Assembly (NCBI GenBank): GCA_943704415.1
Contig: CALSCO010001589.1
Location: forward strand, 1-31,017
Length of the DNA: 31,017 bases
Source: Parvularia atlantis
Taxonomy: Eukaryota > Opisthokonta > Rotosphaerida
Reading direction: 5' to 3'
Shown here in pieces: positions 13,158 to 31,017 of the stretch (the stretch's first letter is position 1; the number at the start of each line of letters is the position of its first letter). The notes beneath the pieces are model-generated. The model saw only the letters and a list, made by a program, of their open reading frames with translations, ran no database searches and was not told the origin of the DNA. The translations under genes were made by a program, and so were the position numbers.

Positions 13158-13184
13158 GCTGTACAAAAAGCGCGCGGCCGGCGC

Positions 13185-14804
13185 TCAGATATCGAGTGTG
13201 CTGTACCCGCCCCAGTTGCGTGGCGGCGCGAGGAAGACGCGGTGGCCCTTGCTCTTGAACTCGACCACGCCCTTGTACGCGCACCGCGGCACGCCCGACT
13301 GCGCGAGGGCCCCGTCAGCACGCCGCACCCGCTGTGCACGTGCGCGTGCGCACCCGGATGTCGCTCATCAGCTGGAAGACCCGGGCGAGCGTCTCAAACT
13401 CCTTGCGGTCGCGGTACGTCAGGCGGTACAGCCCGCGCGGCGCGTCGGGCTCGCGCTCGCGCAGCACCTTGATCTGTCCGCGCGCCGGTCAGGTGCTGCG
13501 CACGGTGCCACCCGCCCTGCGCACCCGCCCGGGCTCGACTTCCTCGGCCTGCTCGTAGACGGTGCGCAGGAAGGCCGCGTCGTAGGCGTCGTGGTGCAGC
13601 GTCGCGAGGCTCTCGTCCGTGCGGAAGTCGACCGGCACCGTGTTGAGCACGATAAACTGCAGGTGTTCCTTCCAGTACTGCCCGACGCTCGCGCCGCGCT
13701 CGCCAAAGGTGTACGTGCGCGAGATCTCGGGCTGGATGCACGACCTTTCCGCGCGCGCGGGTGACGCGTCAGCATGCGCGCAGCATGGCATAAGCACAGC
13801 CTCCTGCGCCGCACCGGTCCTGGCGCTGGTCCGCGTGCCGCAGCCAGTCGTCCCAGAACGCGGCCGGCCACTTTGGCTTGAGCTCGGTCCAGATTTCGCG
13901 CGTGAGCATCCACCCGAGCCCCGGAAAGAAGTCGGTGCGGCGCACGGCGGCTGTGCTCACACGTCAGAAGCGACCGCGCTTCACGCGCGCACACAAGACG
14001 CACCCGGGTCGTCGATTAGCTGCGCCTTGCCGTTGTCGTTCCACGCTGAGACGCAATACAGCGTCGGATCGGCGCGCAGTACGGGCAGCATCGCCTCAAA
14101 GTAGGCGAAAAAGTCGGGCGCGATCTCGAGGTCGTCTGTGCTCGCGCGCTCGTGTGAGCCACAGCAGCACGCGTGCGCGGCACGCGCGCACACCCTCGAC
14201 AATGATGATCTCGTCAAACATGAGCACGTCAAACATCTCGGTCAGCGCCCACTTGTAGTGCCGCGAGATCTTGTAGTAGTTGATGAAGCGGTCGTGGTCG
14301 GGCGGGACGTTCTCGATCGGGCCGAGGTTGGGCTGCTGCAGGTGGATCAGCCGGTCTTCGTACGGGTCGATCGCGCCGGCCGTCGTCTGGTCGCCGCAGT
14401 CCTGGCTGACGACGATCGGGAAGCCGTGGCTCGGGCGGTACCTGTGCCGCGCGAAACGTCAGCGAGCACAAACGCGCGCGCGGGCGCGGGACGCACTTGA
14501 GCAGCGAGTCGATCGCTCGCCGTACCTCGACGCGGTTGCACGCGATCAGCAGCACGCCGATCCGCGGGCGCGCCTCGGGCGCGGCCGGCGCACCCGCCTC
14601 GACTACGCGCTGCGGCACAGCCGTGGCGGCCGGCGCATCGTCGTCGGCGTCTGGCGTCCTCCGCTCGACCGCATCGCCGCTGCTCACGCCCACGTCACGG
14701 CCGCGCGCATCGTCCGCACCGCCGCGCCCCGGCAGGCTGTACACGAGCAGGCACAGCACAAGCGCGCCAAGGACGAGCGCTGCGACATTCGCCCTTCGTG
14801 GCAT
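13185..14804 (-). CDS. MGAT1: Alpha-1,3-mannosyl-glycoprotein 2-beta-GlcNAc transferase (GnT I, GT13)
   Basis: Golgi type II enzyme that adds the first GlcNAc to Man5 N-glycans and so opens hybrid and complex glycan synthesis. The N-terminal anchor is NVAALVLGALVLCLLVYSL, followed by an acidic Ala/Pro stem. The catalytic domain matches human MGAT1 in order: IGVLLIACNRVEVRRAIDSL, FPIVVSQDCGDQTT, PPDHDRFINYYKISRHYKWA, the metal-binding EDDLEIAPDFF, LYCVSAWNDNGKAQLIDD, RTDFFPGLGWMLTREIW, KWPAAFWDDWLR, SCIQPEISRTYTFG and final SGVPRCAYKGVVEF ... LAPPRNWGGY. Seven exons with phase-consistent joins; one acceptor reads AAAG rather than CAG. ATG 14804 places the anchor at the N-terminus. It lies 41 bp downstream of the TatD gene. 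Looks intact. Confidence 0.96.
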
Positions 14805-14845
14805 CGCTGTCACCAAAGCATGCCCGCGGACATTGTGATGAGCGA

Positions 14846-17839: not shown

Positions 17840-20800
17840 ATGCGGCGAGCCGCGTCGCTGCTGCGCCCGGCGCTGTTGCTGCGCTCGCCGCTGTCGGCGC
17901 CACCGTCGGCGCTGCTGCTGCGGCGGCACGCGCGCCCGGCCGCGATGACGTCGTCCGCGCGCTGGATGAGCGACGCCGCCGCGCCGATCGAGATGCCGGA
18001 TGCGCGGCCCGACGCGCCACTGGCCGCGCGCCCGCTGCCGCAGACGGCGTACGGTGCGCGCGCGCGTGGCACGCGGGGTCTGCGCGGCCGCCGATCGCTT
18101 ACGATGCGCGCTCACGCAGGGTCCTGGCGCACGGTCTGCCGCGCATTCGGCGCGCACGAGGACACGCCCGCGTTCGCCGACAGCCTGTACGTGGCCAAGG
18201 CGATGCAGCCGCGGGTCATGAGCGTGTTGCTCAAGTGGGGCCGCGAGCACGCGGACGAGGTCGTGCCCGTGCTGGCGGCGTACGAGCAGCGGCGCGGTGC
18301 GCGGCTGACGGACGGCGTCGGCGATGCGCGCGTGGCTGACCGCGCGCCGCAGACTATATGCCGCTCATGCGCGAGCTGTACCAGCGCTGTGTTGCCCAGG
18401 AGTTCCACACGGAGACGAGCAACTTCCGCGTGCTCAAGGAGAACAGCGATATGCGCCTGCCGCACCAGTGGTACCCCTTGGCGCGGGCCATCCGCGTGCG
18501 TGATGCACCGGCTGCGTGCTTGACGTCTGCCCGCGGCTCACGCCCCAATGCAGCGCCGCATCATCTACCACATGGGCCCGACCAACAGCGGCAAGACGTA
18601 CCAGGCGATGCAGAGCCTGCTGCTGGCCGACCGCGGCATCTACTGCGCGCCGCTGCGCCTGCTCGCGCTCGAGGTGTACGAGAAGCTGAACCAGCAGGGC
18701 GTGCACTGCAACCTGGTGACGGGCCAGGAGATGCGCGAGACCCCGGGTGCCGTGCGGCAGCGCTCGCGCATACGCTGCTGACACGGGTGCGAAAGGCGCC
18801 GCTCACCTGTCGTGCACGGTCGAGATGATCGCGACGACCGTCAAGTCGATGAAGCTGCACAACGTCGCCGTGCTGGACGAGATTCAGGTGCGCGTTCACC
18901 ACGGCGCGGCCACCCGCCGGGGCCTCACGGTGCTGCGCGCAGATGATCGGCGACACCGAGCGTGGCTGGGCGTGGACGTGCGCCTTCCTAGGCATGCACG
19001 CGTACGAGGTGTGCGCGCGGGCTGGCCGGGTGCGCGCGGCATGTACCAACTAGGCGCGCGCGCACGCAGATCCACCTATGTGGCGACCCATCAGCGCGCG
19101 AACTGATCACGCGCCTGTGCGAGTCAACGGGTGACGACCTCGAGTTCCGCGAGTACGAGCGGCGCACTGAGCTGAGCGTCTGTCCGCCGCCCGCGAACGG
19201 CTTCAAGGACATCGAGAAGGGTGCACGCGTGCTCGTGCTTTGTGCACCCCTGCGCTGACGGCTCTGTGCCAGGCGACTGTGTCGTGGCGTTCCGGCGCAA
19301 GGACCTCTTCGCGCTGAAGGCGACAGTCGAGACCGTGACGCAGTACCGCGCTGCGATCGTCTACGGCAAGCTGCCGCCGGAAGTGCGCTCTGAGCAGGTG
19401 CGCGGTGACGGCGATGGCGGTCTGGTGCAGCACGGCTCACGTGACCGGCAGGCGCGCCTGTTTAACGAGGAGAACAGCTCGTACGACGTGCTCGTCGCGA
19501 CCGATGCCATCGGCATGGGGCTCAACCTGTACGCGCGGCTCGTGCAGGGGTGTGCCGTCATGACTGACCGTCGGACAGCAACATCCGCCGTGTCATCTTC
19601 TCGAGCATGCGCAAGTTTGACGGCACCGACCAGCGCCTGCTGCACCCGTCGGAGATCCGCCAGGTGCGCCTGTCGCTCGTGCTGCGCGCCCCGGTGCTCA
19701 TGCTTGAGCGCGCGTGCGCAGATCGCTGGCCGCGCCGGCCGCGCCGGCTCGCGGTACCCGGACGGCCTGGTCACCTGGTGCGACGCGCTGCGCCCGTCTC
19801 ACGCTAGCACTGAGCACACGCCACGCAGCATGGAGCCGATGGAGCTGCCGGTGCTCGTGGAGGCCCTGCGCACGCAGCCGGAGCAGACCGAGAAGGCCGG
19901 GCTGCTGCCAAGCATCGAACACATCGAGACGTTCTCGCGCATCAACCCAAACATGAAGCTGTCGACGCTGATGGCACGCGCGCGCTCGCTCGATTGACGG
20001 CGGCTCACGCGACGCGCGCGCACAGCAATACATCGAGTCGCTGGCGCAGATCGGCGGCAACTTTTTCCTGTGCAACGCGAGCGGCTTCAGCGTGCGTGCG
20101 CCGCGATGGCGACCGTGCGCGCTGCAGCACGCTGACGCGCCGCTCCGCCATAGACGCTGGCAGACCTGATTGAGGGCATCAAGGAGCTGACGGCCGCCGA
20201 GCGCTACCTGTTCTGCATGTCGCCCGCGCTGCTCAACTCAAACTTCACAAAGCGCTACTTTGTGCAGGTGTGCTCACAGCCCGGTGCTGGTTGCAGCTGA
20301 CACGCGGGCACGCGCAGTTTGCGCAGATGTACTCGGTCGCGCGCGAAGTGCAGTGCCTGCTGCTCAACGAGCGCCCGCTCGTGATCAGGAGCGACGTCGA
20401 CCTGGCAAAATGTGAGGAGCGCCTCAACGTGATGGAGACGTACCTGTGGCTCTCGTACGTAATGCGCGCCCCTTGAGGCTTGCGTGCGCAGCGCTGACGC
20501 GCGGGCGCAGCGAGCGCCTGGTCGGCTTTGTCGACAAGGAGCGCGTGGTCGAGGAGCGCCTCAAGGTACATGATGCCGCGCGTAGTTGCGTGGCTGCTGA
20601 CATCGCCTTGCTCCGGCCGCCAGCTGATTGAGCAGATGAACACGGCCCTGCGCGCGCACTGGAGCCTGCGCGGCCGTGGCCAGCTGGGCGACGAGCGGCC
20701 ACGCGACAGCGACCGCACCAACAGCCGGCTGCAGCGAGGCGGCCAGGAGCAGCCGCGCCCTCGGCACCGCAGCGGGCACCGGCATGCGGGCTACACGGAG

Positions 20801-20872
20801 CACCGACCCCATTACCGACAGCGCAAGGAGCAGCGCGAGGCGCCGACGCCGCAGCTGTCCATCCGCGCGTGA
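17840..20872 (+). CDS. SUV3: Mitochondrial ATP-dependent RNA helicase SUV3
   Basis: DExH-like helicase of mitochondrial RNA turnover, partner of PNPase or a 3' exonuclease. The N-terminus (MRRAASLLRPALLLRSPL) is Arg/Leu/Ser-rich without acids, typical of matrix targeting. Motifs: IIYHMGPTNSGKTYQAM (Walker A), GIYCAPLRLLALEVYEKLN, LVTGQEMRE, AVLDEIQMIGDTERGWAWT (DEIQ), VHLCGDPS-like segment, LVATDAIGMGLNL, IRRVIFSSMRKFDG, QIAGRAGRAGSRYPDG (motif VI). The C-terminal SUV3 region has FFLCNASGF, FAQMYSVAREVQCLLLNERP and ETYLWLS. A basic Arg/Gln/His-rich tail ends at TGA 20870-20872. About 17 exons, all phase-consistent; intron 19974-20025 uses GC. Stops 25 bp from the stop of the convergent fusion gene. 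Confidence 0.96.
19974..20025 (+). other. GC-AG intron in SUV3
   Basis: ATG|GCACGC ... ACAG|CAATAC gives KLSTLM-QYIESLAQIGG, equal in length to human TLSNLIDIFVDFSQVDG. There is no GT dinucleotide between the exon end and the acceptor, so a GT donor is excluded here. Confidence 0.85.
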
Positions 20873-20897: not shown

Positions 20898-23330
20898 CTA
20901 CGCGTCGTCTGCTTGTGCGTTCGCGTCTGCGTCGACGACGGCGTCGGCCGGCGCGGCGTCCGCGGATGCATCTGACTGCGAGTCGGCCTGCGCGTCTGCG
21001 TTCCAGTTGAGTTCGACGACGTCCACGGCCACGGCTGCTGGCGCGTGCTGCTCAGTCTTGGCGTCCTCGCGGGCTGCACTGACGGCCCAAGCATCGGCGA
21101 CCTCGCCGTCTGCCGCGTCCGCGCTCATCCGTAGAGGACCGGTGCCGTTGCGCCGCGTCAGCACCAGCGGGCCGCGCTCGGCGTCGAGCAGCCGCGGCAG
21201 CCGCGACCTGTTTACACTCGAGCAGGTCAGCGGCCACCGTCCCGGGTAGTCCTGGGCGACGCGACCCGCGTGCAGCAGCTTGACGCCGGCGTGGACGAGC
21301 ACGGGCGTCATGCCGAGGGTGAGGCGCAGGTTGTACTCGGGTGCGAGTGTCAGGACGCGGATGTCGCGCACGAGCATAGCCGCCGCAAGCGCATCGCTCA
21401 GGCCCGCGGTGGCCTTGTCCGCCGCCTCGTAGTCACTCAGCCAGGCACGCAGGAGGCCGGTGGTGCGCTCGTTGCGCTTGACCAGCAGCACACCAACGTT
21501 GTAGTGCGTCAGGTTGCCGAGCGCGGGCTGCTGCGACGGCTGCTGCAGCGGCGACAGCTCGAGCGCCGCGGCGACGTCGTGGTGGTCGAGCAGGCCAAAC
21601 AGCACCGCCGGGTCCTCACACACGACCACGCCTGTGTCCAGCAGGAGCGTGCGCTCGTACGGCGAGCGCAGGAGTGCGCGGATGCGGTCGCTGCCGGGCA
21701 CCTGCGCCGGTCGCGCGTCAGCGTCGGACATAGTGCGTGTGCAGCGCGCACGGTCGAGGTGCCGATCACGCGCAGATCGTTGACGCCGTCGAGGGCGTCG
21801 CTCGACAGGGCCGCGTCCTTGTCGATCATGACCGCCAGGGGCAGGTCCGCGTTGACCGTGCGAAGAGACGTGACCAGGCGGCGCAAGCGGCTCGGCCCGT
21901 CGGCCGGCCTGCGAGTGCAACAGCGGCGTCAGACAGGCGCCCCGCTCTGCGCAAAAGACGCACTTGCGCGCTTCTGGGCCAAAGGAGACTACGATGCCGC
22001 TGCTGTAGGGCTCGTCCGTCGTGTGCAGGCCGTCGAAGCAAGTGCTGGCGGGCTCGCTGGGGGTCGGGCAGGCGGCGCACTTGGGGCACTCGCACGGCGG
22101 GCAGACGACGCCGACCTGCGACGCGACAAAGTTGACGCCGACGCCGCGCGGGTCGCACGGTGCGCAGAGGTTGCGCTCGGTGCCACCGGGCACGTCGTGC
22201 ACGCGGCGCGCCCCGTCCGGCGCCGTCGAGACGATGCCGATGCTGTGGTACACCACGTAGAAGACAACCGCGGCCAGTAGTAGTCGTGCGACGAGCGAGG
22301 TGTGCGGGAGCCAATGCTGCCTGTCGAGACCGGTCCTCTGGAGCGGCGGCGACGGCAGCGATGGCGACGGCGATGCGGCAGCGGGCGTGCTCTCGCGCAG
22401 GTACGCTGCCGCAAACATGACGAGGCCGACGGCGACGATGACGGCGCCGGCCGACGCGCGGGTCACGTACGCGGCCGGGCGCGGCGCCGTATAGAGCGCG
22501 TCGCTGTCGCCGAAGACGAGCAGGCCGACGACGACCGTGAGGCACGCTCGCGCGTGGCAGACGATTTGGTACAAGACCGGCGAGCTCCTGATGATGGCAA
22601 AGGCGTAGAGGCCGGCGGTGACGGTGAGCACGCACGAGAGCGCGAGCATGACCGCGTCCTGCCCTGCGACGCCGAGAGCGCAGATCGCCCGCAAGGCGTC
22701 GGGCTCGAGCACGGCGGCACAGGCAGCGACTAGTACAAAGGCGTACGGCGCGATGACGGCCATCGTCTGGACCGATTTAAGGCCGTGGCGCGCCTGCAGC
22801 TGGTGCACGGCCACCTGCAGCACGACGTCGTGAGTGGGACGCTGCTGCGCGCACATGCGCGGAAACCAGCGCACCTGCGCGTACGACGTAAGCAGCACGG
22901 TCATCGCGTCGCGCCCGACGTTGACGCTGCCGCCGGCGACGCCGACACCGACGACGATGACGGCGAGCGCGGCGACGATCGCGCCCGAGACGCCACGGCC
23001 GAGCAGCAGCCACTGCAGCGCGACGACGGCGGGCGTGCAGAGCAGCTGGCCGAGCTCGTGCGCCGCGACAGTGCTGCTCGTCAGGCCCGCGCTAACGAGC
23101 GCGAGGCCGATGCCGAACGGGGCGGCGACGCGCACGGCCTCGAGCATCGGCACACGCTGCTGCTGCTGATCGGTCGCCGTCACGAGGCGCGCGAGCAGCC
23201 CGACGACGGCGCAGACGAGCAGCTGCAGCGCCGTGGCCGCGATCGGCCAGGCGAAGGCCGCCAGCAGCGCCCGGTCGACCAGCGCCAGCGCCGCGCCGCT
23301 CGCGACGGCACCCGCTGGTCCCAGCGCCAT
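20898..23330 (-). CDS. Fusion: nucleotide-sugar transporter (TPT/DMT) + extra helix + glycosyltransferase-like domain
   Basis: Four exons (23330-22875, 22814-21964, 21908-21752, 21701-20898) give 755 residues. Residues about 1-330 form a roughly ten-helix DMT/triose-phosphate-type transporter; recognisable parts are VNVGRDAMTVLLTSYAQVAV, HGLKSVQTMAVIAPYAFVLV and VLYQIVCHARACLTVVVGLL followed by VFGD. A Ser/Pro linker leads to an eleventh helix (LVARLLLAAVVFYVVYHSIG), then a stem with four CxxC pairs. The last 330 residues resemble nucleotide-diphospho-sugar transferases: SRLRRLVTSLRTVNADLPLA, IRALLRSPYERTLLLDTGVV, LTHYNVGVLLVKRNERTTGL, EYNLRLTLGMTPVLVHAG. The usual LDxD metal site reads LDTG. 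Three N-glycosylation sequons (NLT, NRS, NGT) lie in this half, fitting a lumenal position. An acidic tail ends it. Transporter family is clear; donor sugar and activity are unknown. Confidence 0.82.
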   Translation of the reverse strand: MALGPAGAVASGAALALVDRALLAAFAWPIAATALQLLVCAVVGLLARLVTATDQQQQRVPMLEAVRVAAPFGIGLALVSAGLTSSTVAAHELGQLLCTPAVVALQWLLLGRGVSGAIVAALAVIVVGVGVAGGSVNVGRDAMTVLLTSYAQVRWFPRMCAQQRPTHDVVLQVAVHQLQARHGLKSVQTMAVIAPYAFVLVAACAAVLEPDALRAICALGVAGQDAVMLALSCVLTVTAGLYAFAIIRSSPVLYQIVCHARACLTVVVGLLVFGDSDALYTAPRPAAYVTRASAGAVIVAVGLVMFAAAYLRESTPAAASPSPSLPSPPLQRTGLDRQHWLPHTSLVARLLLAAVVFYVVYHSIGIVSTAPDGARRVHDVPGGTERNLCAPCDPRGVGVNFVASQVGVVCPPCECPKCAACPTPSEPASTCFDGLHTTDEPYSSGIVVSFGPEARKCVFCAERGACLTPLLHSQAGRRAEPLAPPGHVSSHGQRGPAPGGHDRQGRGPVERRPRRRQRSARDRHLDRARCTRTMSDADARPAQVPGSDRIRALLRSPYERTLLLDTGVVVCEDPAVLFGLLDHHDVAAALELSPLQQPSQQPALGNLTHYNVGVLLVKRNERTTGLLRAWLSDYEAADKATAGLSDALAAAMLVRDIRVLTLAPEYNLRLTLGMTPVLVHAGVKLLHAGRVAQDYPGRWPLTCSSVNRSRLPRLLDAERGPLVLTRRNGTGPLRMSADAADGEVADAWAVSAAREDAKTEQHAPAAVAVDVVELNWNADAQADSQSDASADAAPADAVVDADANAQADDA

Positions 23331-23468: not shown

Positions 23469-25882
23469 TCAGAAGCTCCAGCCGTTCGGGTTGCTGTTGG
23501 CCGGGCGGCTCGTCGACGGGCCGAAGCCGCCGTTGGCCGTGGCTGCAAGAGCGACCGTCAGCGGTTGCGCTTGCAGGCAGCGCGCAAGACGCACTCTTCG
23601 GTGCTGCACTCATGCCGCCCATCCCGCCGTATGGCGCACCGTAGCCCGCACCGCCCATCGGCGGCGCCTTTCCGCCCATCGGTGCGCCGAAACCGGCACC
23701 GCCAAAGCCAGCACCGCCCATCTGAGGCGCGCCGAAGCTCACTCCGGCCATTGGAGGCGCGCCAAAGCCTGCGCCGGCCATCGGCGGAGCACCGAAGCCT
23801 GCAGGTGTCTCAGGGTCAGGCACGCTGCAACACACGCCGACGCCCGCGCGCACCCATCGGCGACGGGCCGCCCATGCCCGCGAGCGGCGGCATGGTCGAG
23901 GCCGAGTTGAGCGGCATGCCGGGCTTCATCGGCTTGTGCTCCTGCTTGTGCGCCGGCGACCCGGCCGGCTTCTTGAGGTTGTCGAGGTCGACCAGGCCAG
24001 CAGCGCCCCAGCTCTTGACCTGTGCGTGCACACCCGCGCGTCAGCCGACAGCGCGCGCGAGGGCGTGACGGGTTTGCGCGCCTTGTCGTCGACGGCCGCG
24101 GCGACCTTCGCCTTGCCGTTGGCCGAGTCCGGGACGAGCACGGGGCCGACAGGCACGGCGGCCGACTGCGGGTCAGCCAGTCAGTGACACCGCCGGCTCA
24201 GCTGAACAGACAGACGCACCTCGTGCGCAGGGATGTCGCCGAACGGGTCCAGCATCTGGTTCGAGGCGGGCGCGCGCGCACTGTGAAAGGGGCGGCGCGT
24301 TTTGTGTTGCGCCGCGACATGCAGCGCGCATGCACGCACCCCATCGGCGCGCCGCCAAAGGCCGCAAAGCCGTTCGACGCGGGTGCCATGCCGCCAAACG
24401 CGTTGAACGCGGGCGCGGGCGAGGCGACGACCGGCGCCGGCGCGGCGAAGGCGTCGAACGTCCCAAAGCCCGACGCGGCCGGAGCCGGAGCGGGCGCGTT
24501 GAAGCTGCATGTGTGCGACGCGTGAGCACGGCCATACACTACGTGTACGCGCACCCGCCGAACGCGTCAAAGCCCGTGGCGGCCGGTGCTGAAGCCGGCG
24601 GCGGCGCCGTGAAGCTCGTAAAGTCGTCAAAGCCGCCCGACGCTTTGCTCGCGGCCGGCGCGGTGCTCGTGGCCGCGGCCGACATCTTTACCTGGAACTT
24701 GGGCGCGGGCGCGGCGCCGCCCTGGAAGTCAGCAAAGTCGTCCGACTTGGCCTTCGACGGCGGATGACCGAGCGACGGGAAGCCGGCCTCAGCAGAAGGG
24801 GCGGACTTGGCCCTGCGCCGGCGCACCGTCAGGCAGAAACCCGCACGTCATGTAAGCCCGCAGGCGCAGGCGCACCGCGTGCTAGTGGCAGCGGCGCTGG
24901 CGGAGACGGCGCTGGCCTTGGCCTCGCCAAAGTCATCGTAGCGCTTGTTCGTGCGCTGTGTCCGGTCGTCGCTGAAGACGTCGTCATCGTCAAACTCGCT
25001 CCGCCGGCCGTTGCCGCTGCTGTACGAGTCGTACTGGCCTGTTGCGGCCGCGCATGCACGTAAGCAATGCAACGCGGCATACAGTCGCGAACGGCACCGA
25101 CGCGGTCCTCGGCGCTCACACCGACATACTTGTCACGCGACTGCTTGGCTGCGCACGCGACGGTTGGCTCGGCGCGCAGAGCAGCGGGCGCGCGGGCCGC
25201 AGAGCGCACCGACGCGGCGCGCCTCTTTGATGCGGTCGGTGTCGCCGAGGAGGACGACGATTTCGTGCGAGCGGTTGCGCACGTTCAGGCCCACGTCCTT
25301 GCCCTTCTCGTCGATGAGCTCGTAGTGCGCGAGTGCTGTGCGCGCGCGTGCGCGAGTGTGCGTGAGCATTGTGTGCGGTCACGCGGGGGCAGACACTGGC
25401 GGGCTTGCGCACCCTTGAGGTCGTACATGTGGTCGCGCGCGTACGTGACGCACTTCTCCGAGCCGTTCTTGATCAGGTACTCGAGCAGCGTCAGGCCCTT
25501 GTACACGTGACGCCACTGCTTGCCGCTCTCGTTGAGCTGCGGCGCGGCCTCGCTGTGAGCACGCGGTTGACGCGGCGCGGCACGGCGGCGGCGCGCACCC
25601 GCTTGTAGATCGTGTCCATCACCTGGCCAAACTCGTCCGGGTTATGCGTGGCCTGGGCGATCTCGGTCATGAGCTGCGCGCGCGGCGGCGGGAGGCGCCG
25701 TGGCGTGCGCCCGCGCCGTGAGCCTACGCGAAGGACGGGATGCGCGGCCGCACGCGCGCACGCACCGTGCCCGACGCGCCCCACGCGTCGTTGTTGGTCG
25801 CCTCGCGGACCTTGGTCTCGATCTCGGTGTAGTTCATCACGAAGTTGGTGGCCGTGCTCACGGCCGACTTGAGGAAGTCCAT
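23469..25882 (-). CDS. CLINT1: EpsinR/CLINT1-type ENTH-domain clathrin adaptor
   Basis: Clathrin/AP-1 accessory adaptor for TGN-endosome traffic. The ENTH domain is spread over short exons: TNFVMNYTEIETKVREATNN, LMTEIAQATHNPDEFGQVMD, WRHVYKGLTLLEYLIKNGSE, YARDHMYDLK, LAHYELIDEKGKDVGLNVRN and RDKYVGVSAEDRVGQYDSYS. These match human CLINT1 (VVMNYSEIESKVREATNDD; NKDKYVGVSS) better than classical epsins. The long low-complexity tail has acidic-Phe motifs (SDDFADF, GFDDFTSF) that fit gamma-ear/GGA binding, then FDAFGG/FNAFGG repeats. KSWGAAGLVDLDNL resembles CLINT1 STWSDPSVNISLDNL. Gly/Phe/Met-rich repeats (GFGAPPM) precede NSNPNGWSF and the stop (23469-23471). ATG 25882 starts MDFLKSAVS. About ten exons; joins in the tail are approximate. 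No UIM is evident. Confidence 0.9.

Positions 25883-30936: not shown

Positions 30937-30937
<1 letters not shown>

Positions 30938-31017
<80 letters not shown>
30938..31017. repeat. CA dinucleotide microsatellite at window edge
   Basis: About 39 or more CA units run to the end of the window, directly after the SANT gene stop. The true length is unknown because the window cuts it. Confidence 0.98.

Follow-up and report, generated by a model that had tools for sequence, protein, structure and literature searches.

Can a sugar-nucleotide carrier and the glycosyltransferase that uses its cargo be made as a single polypeptide? The question is raised by a gene on the minus strand (23330-20898) of contig CALSCO010001589.1 of Parvularia atlantis (assembly GCA_943704415.1). 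The window analysed here is the whole contig, 31,017 bases with a GC content of 70%, in a genome of 16.25 Mb and 616 contigs; the short introns in its genes mark it as eukaryotic. An initial annotation had read the gene as a nucleotide-sugar transporter joined to a lumenal glycosyltransferase (GT), with the same donor sugar imported and used by one chain. We find that the fusion gene is real. The reading that we favour, with a probability of about 0.45, is that it would encode a single secretory-pathway membrane protein in which a non-canonical or inactive GT domain is tethered beside a carrier. The chain runs from a ten-helix DMT/TPT (SLC35-like) carrier through a cytosolic Ser/Pro linker, an eleventh helix and a Cys-rich stem to a lumenal GT-A domain; the order of these parts is read from the sequence, and the number of helices and their topology are predictions.

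The gene begins with an ATG at 23330 and ends with a stop codon at 20900-20898. Removal of 22874-22815 (60 nt), 21963-21909 (55 nt) and 21751-21702 (50 nt) leaves four exons and a frame of 755 residues, with the following parts.

22875-23330, minus strand: exon 1, residues 1-152, with the start codon and candidate carrier helices 1-6, from the open frame and hydropathy, the helices of a low-confidence structural model and a profile alignment that starts at residue 13
22815-22874, minus strand: intron 1, 60 nt, in frame, with the signature GTGCG..CTCAC..CAG
21964-22814, minus strand: exon 2, residues 153-436, with candidate carrier helices 7-10, the linker, helix 11, the stem and the start of the GT domain
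21909-21963, minus strand: intron 2, 55 nt, from the signature and the gain in GT-profile score
21752-21908, minus strand: exon 3, residues 436-488, the first part of the GT-A domain, to which homologues align once introns 2 and 3 are removed
21702-21751, minus strand: intron 3, 50 nt, from the signature and the gain in GT-profile score
20898-21701, minus strand: exon 4, residues 489-755 and the stop codon, with the GT-A core to approximately residue 655 and then an Ala/Asp-rich tail

The introns obey a simple rule, namely GTGCG, then CTNAC and, 5-25 bases later, YAG, with a total length of 45-66 nt. Within 20898-23330 this rule matches the coding strand exactly three times, at the 60, 55 and 50 nt introns already proposed in the initial annotation, and the antisense strand not at all. 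A branch-like A lies 16, 20 and 16 nt before the ends of introns 1, 2 and 3, respectively. Across the window, the two strands carry 28 and 29 matching donor positions (including five pairs with a common acceptor), compared with 3.5 ± 1.7 matches in 30 second-order Markov copies of the window. The signature is thus enriched approximately eightfold on both strands and appears helpful for predicting genes here. In the neighbouring helicase gene one hand-read intron fits the rule, and a second begins with GTGTG and lacks CTNAC.

Homology provides a second line of evidence for two of the introns. When splice variants were scored with a GT profile built without the window sequence, the fully spliced protein reached 101.3 bits and the unspliced frame 85.6 bits. 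With only introns 1 and 2 removed the score was 4.5 bits (9 stops), and with only introns 1 and 3 removed it was -2.4 bits (3 stops). Among 1000 shuffles, 683 were reported and the best scored 3.1 bits. The score collapses when either intron 2 or intron 3 is retained alone, so homology supports both. Intron 1 is predicted from its signature only, since a carrier profile from which one exon of a paralogue had been omitted did not separate the spliced (10.3 bits) from the unspliced form (11.1 bits). The unspliced frame is also open, for 813 codons from the upstream stop, and an open frame is therefore by itself no proof of the introns. An alternative in-frame intron of 48 nt within helix 8 (GTGCG at 22635, located by eye) was rejected, having no match to the signature; its rough deletion moved the score with the same carrier profile from 10.3 to 9.8 bits, so homology hardly tests it.

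The junction between the two halves lies inside exon 2, where there is neither a stop codon nor an intron signature. The methionines of the protein are at positions 1, 62, 143, 170, 208, 285, 463, 597, 619 and 680, and between 22480 and 21750 the only ATGs in any frame of the coding strand are those of Met285 and Met463. Since no ATG lies between these two, a separate transferase anchored by helix 11 would have no start codon available unless a separate upstream exon supplied one. Over the 755 codons, GC at the first, second and third positions is 0.746, 0.513 and 0.89, and third-position GC is 0.73-0.97 in each 30-codon block, the linker included, and 0.80-0.97 across exon 2. As far as can be judged from the sequence, carrier and transferase-like domain are one gene, and the single reading frame and domain order of the initial annotation hold.

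Two separate genes, a carrier and a type II transferase, mistakenly read together might be suspected from the tight packing of the locus, where the frame of a plus-strand helicase ends at 20872 (by eye), 25 bp from the stop codon of the fusion gene. We rejected this explanation, which is barely plausible for a junction with no stop, intron signature or start codon. It is also very improbable that the assembly has joined two loci. The fusion is known from a single contig in a single genome; however, the join is in frame within an exon, the codon bias runs through it unbroken, and each half, searched for as protein in the genome, turns up at this locus only. P0001, a member of the transferase-like family described below, had exon 4 as its sole match in the whole genome (E 3e-14).

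Sequence homology links the C-terminal part to a bacterial nucleotide-diphospho-sugar transferase-like family, and it is to the profile of this family that the 101.3 bits refer. A folded family member has a GT-A fold, the nearest structures being glycogenin, LARGE1 and LgtC. Homology and fold together support a GT-A-like C-terminus, in agreement with the transferase-like domain of the initial annotation. No GT family exceeded its Pfam cut-off with this domain (the best was PF11051, E 0.041, 13.7 bits against a cut-off of 22), and searches of NCBIfam, PHROGs and PDB sequences with carrier or GT domain gave nothing above cut-off or with a convincing E-value, the weak matches being NF005436 (E 0.027) and 1n9s (E 0.77). 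No relative turned up when viral contigs were searched with query A1 or genome contigs with P0001, and P0001 had no match among phages and matched three plasmid records.

The family (P0001, P0002 and L012-L039) comes from bacteria, archaea and viral contigs. It shares with the window the GT-A homology, the first Asp of the DXD motif, an Asn and a His. Its open reading frames are 222-559 residues from stop to stop, with LDxD intact in 31 of 31, whereas the window domain has LDTG and is joined to a carrier. Glycogenin, LgtC (both GT8) and the GT-A domain of LARGE1 are remote relatives in sequence, from which the window domain differs in lacking a canonical metal site. In an Anaerolineaceae metagenome-assembled genome, five adjacent open reading frames of the same family (L016:2-3738) form an apparent tandem array.

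For the N-terminal half, the comparison was with a profile of four TPT carriers of the same genome (L001-L004), their exons joined by eye. Residues 13-286 match this profile collinearly across all ten helices. With the full L002, the window scored 14.3 bits, and none of 500 local shuffles (mean -8.0, standard deviation 2.8, maximum 4.2) was as high by full or best-domain score; the reversed sequence scored -10.2. Two controls from the same genome, named by eye, scored -0.8 (protease-like) and -0.6 (channel-like), and two of its other carriers, L050 and L051, scored 10.1 and 22.9. With the profile lacking one L002 exon, the window's 10.3 bits again exceeded the full scores of all 500 shuffles (mean -8.9, standard deviation 2.7, maximum 3.9), and hhalign gave 29.0 compared with a background of 13.35 ± 2.1 (n = 60, maximum 19.6). 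The low-confidence model, made from the unspliced stretch, shows ten long carrier helices, a helix at 164-181 that is partly encoded by intron 1, and helix 11, together with short helical pieces at 210-219, 276-279 and 372-375 (unspliced numbering).

Other searches with the carrier were less informative. Split into four pieces, it matched in Pfam only DUF7248, with one piece (E 0.47, 10.9 bits against a cut-off of 27). A PDB sequence search found no solved relative, and a search of viral contigs with the carrier paralogues found no relative. A word-based protein search, a method weak for remote relatives, returned none at E ≤ 10 among 7996 candidates scored. By eye, the sequence has some resemblance to SLC35E3, which we take as a lead only. 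The window differs from the TPT/SLC35 carriers of the DMT clan (L001-L004, and PDB 5y78 via the A3 profile) in falling below the Pfam cut-off and at one position in helix 4.

23046-23048, minus strand: Gln95 in helix 4, where paralogues L001-L004 have Lys, Lys, Lys and Arg

We take this position, basic in all four own-genome paralogues, to be a substrate-contacting site of TPT/SLC35 carriers. In helix 9 the window has Arg241, as does L004, and the other three paralogues have Lys. It is moderately supported that the N-terminal part is a DMT/TPT-like carrier. The family assignment of the initial annotation thus stands on collinear similarity well above shuffles, qualified by the Pfam result and the replaced helix-4 residue. 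We class the protein as DMT/TPT-like and not as a proven nucleotide-sugar transporter.

Between the two halves lie three further elements.

22311-22388, minus strand: Ser/Pro linker, residues 295-320, expected to be cytosolic, from sequence and helix borders
22230-22310, minus strand: helix 11, residues 321-347, a candidate membrane anchor
22038-22166, minus strand: Cys-rich stem, residues 369-411, with 8 Cys and CxxC repeats

Hydropathy reaches 2.11 over residues 319-351, and helix 341-367 of the unspliced model corresponds to residues 321-347 in spliced numbering. The linker, extra hydrophobic helix, stem and three sequons (NLT, NRS and NGT) of the initial annotation are all present. The DNA pattern of the stem (CAPC, CPPCECPKCAAC; 22166-22038, minus strand) is not repeated exactly elsewhere in the genome, CPPCxCPxC as DNA occurring once in 16.25 Mb. 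Carriers of the nucleotide-sugar type have both termini in the cytosol. Counting helices from there, an eleventh would place the stem and GT domain in the lumen, and the lumenal C-terminus proposed earlier is moderately supported on this count. A Golgi type II protein has a single N-terminal anchor; here anchor and stem lie within the chain, after the carrier's hydrophobic segments.

Whether such a chain could both import and use a sugar depends on its functional residues. In GT8 enzymes, the two Asp of the DXD motif and a His hold the metal, and a D-Q pair lies at the sugar. Residues were counted over 31 distinct homologues.

21630-21638, minus strand: degenerate DXD, D510-T511-G512; both Asp are present in 31 of 31 homologues, and the window has Gly at the second
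21396-21401, minus strand: lost D-Q/E pair, L589-S590; homologues have D (30/31) or E (1/31), then Q (26/31) or E (5/31)
21270-21272, minus strand: retained His632 of the LHG motif, present in 31 of 31 homologues

Besides His632, the window keeps the first Asp of the DXD (31/31), Asn556 (29/31) and Asn612 (30/31). The loss of the D-Q/E pair was read in an ungapped alignment, and a two-residue gap could bring Asp591 into the pair. In LgtC, Q189E is an active-site mutant according to the title of PDB entry 1ss9.

That one active chain both imports a nucleotide sugar and, as a lumenal transferase, uses it by channelling is possible but doubtful. The domain order and predicted helices fit it, and carrier-transferase complexes occur in mammals, where two reports describe SLC35A2/A3 with MGATs and SLC35A2 with UGT8 (PMC6453868, PMC9368800). 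As described there, the likeness is a carrier held beside a lumenal transferase, and the difference is that those are separate associating chains, whereas here there would be one covalent chain with a non-canonical GT domain. Metal-independent GT-A enzymes also exist, as the title of 4ayj indicates. Against this stand the losses in the GT domain, of the D-Q/E pair and of the second Asp in DXD, and the missing helix-4 Lys/Arg in the carrier. The specific form in which the donor enters and passes to a GT-A domain working without a canonical metal site, giving covalent channelling across the Golgi membrane, is unlikely. On the same residues, the claim that one donor sugar is both imported and used is not supported as stated; importer-plus-user coupling is a possible reading that we do not favour over a tethered non-canonical or inactive GT domain.

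The losses could instead mean that the fusion gene is under relaxed constraint, heading to loss or specific to a strain, with both halves decaying while the frame is still open. Functional-site losses in both halves would be expected under this explanation, and protein searches gave only two proteins related to the GT half, with no relative for the carrier half. It is nevertheless decidedly improbable for a gene with 755 open codons, strong codon-position bias in every block, linker included, and all three introns intact.

We therefore return to the tethered, non-canonical or inactive GT domain. Most likely, a type II glycosyltransferase gene with its anchor, stem and catalytic domain was joined in frame behind a carrier gene, and helix 11 would act as an internal signal anchor. 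Because the domain has lost the D-Q/E pair and the second of its metal-binding Asp residues, yet retains Asp510, the Asn and His632, it would most likely bind a partner transferase, a nucleotide sugar or a glycan and not carry out canonical metal-dependent catalysis. It may serve as a tether or chaperone that keeps a working transferase or substrate beside the carrier. Loss of the helix-4 Lys/Arg suggests that the substrate of the carrier may also have changed. A partial precedent is offered by COSMC-type chaperones, in which a lumenal GT-like domain without DXD aids another transferase; COSMC is a type II protein of a different family with no carrier fusion.

Several observations weigh against this reading. 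The altered DXD rests on a single codon of a single assembly; a base error is less likely as a full account, because the D-Q/E pair is lost as well. DXD variants can be active, and BoGT6a (4ayj), titled a metal-independent glycosyltransferase, has the same kind of fold, so that residue loss is no proof of inactivity. On the carrier side, when the profile lacked the L002 exon, the best-domain score of one shuffle in 500 was higher than that of the window (13.4 versus 9.0), and the hhalign probability was just 13.2. Nothing in Pfam or NCBIfam exceeded its cut-off with the carrier, and in the test for PF03151 the whole protein gave no match at E ≤ 10. The single-sequence AlphaFold model of the unspliced stretch had a mean predicted local distance difference test score (pLDDT) of 42.7, and Foldseek with this poor carrier model gave a best E-value of 0.95.

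Among the own-genome loci examined, the fusion is exceptional. Six loci match PF03407, of which L041, L043 and L044 are by eye type II proteins with one hydrophobic segment before the GT part, and the TPT paralogues L001, L002 and L004, the three with clearly readable ends, stop within approximately 50 residues of the last helix and have no C-terminal extension. A further locus, L045 (G000:C570:23307-26732), is a very long open frame of 1240 amino acids with a Nucleotid_trans match and, by eye, further GT-like regions in a row. A word-based search for fused proteins (candidates of 415-1321 residues), likewise weak for remote relatives, found none at E ≤ 10 among 7999 scored. In the literature, at the level of titles and abstract openings and with subscription journals thinly covered, no natural carrier-transferase fusion was found. 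The parts are known; their join is new to us.

The fusion gene has close neighbours on both sides. The plus-strand helicase gene (SUV3-like by eye; PF00271 on 19176-19997) is apparently tail to tail with it, 25 bp from its stop codon. Just upstream is an ENTH-domain (epsin-like) gene (25285-25641, minus strand) whose stop, by eye at 23471-23469, is approximately 140 bp before the fusion ATG. A GnT-I (MGAT1-like) gene at approximately 13180-14820, minus strand (limits by eye), lies approximately 6 kb from the fusion, with PF03071 on 14099-14458 (E 8.6e-23), and suggests that the organism makes complex-type N-glycans. A long CA/AC repeat at approximately 30937-31017 closes the contig and is probably an assembly break point.

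Whether carriers of nucleotide sugars physically pass their cargo to particular transferases is an open question in Golgi biology. If evolution has fused a carrier to its user here, the gene would show directly that their partnership matters, and it would be a ready-made construct with which to test channelling. An inactive GT domain would instead be an example of a transferase fold taken over as a tether or chaperone in the lumen, attached to a carrier.
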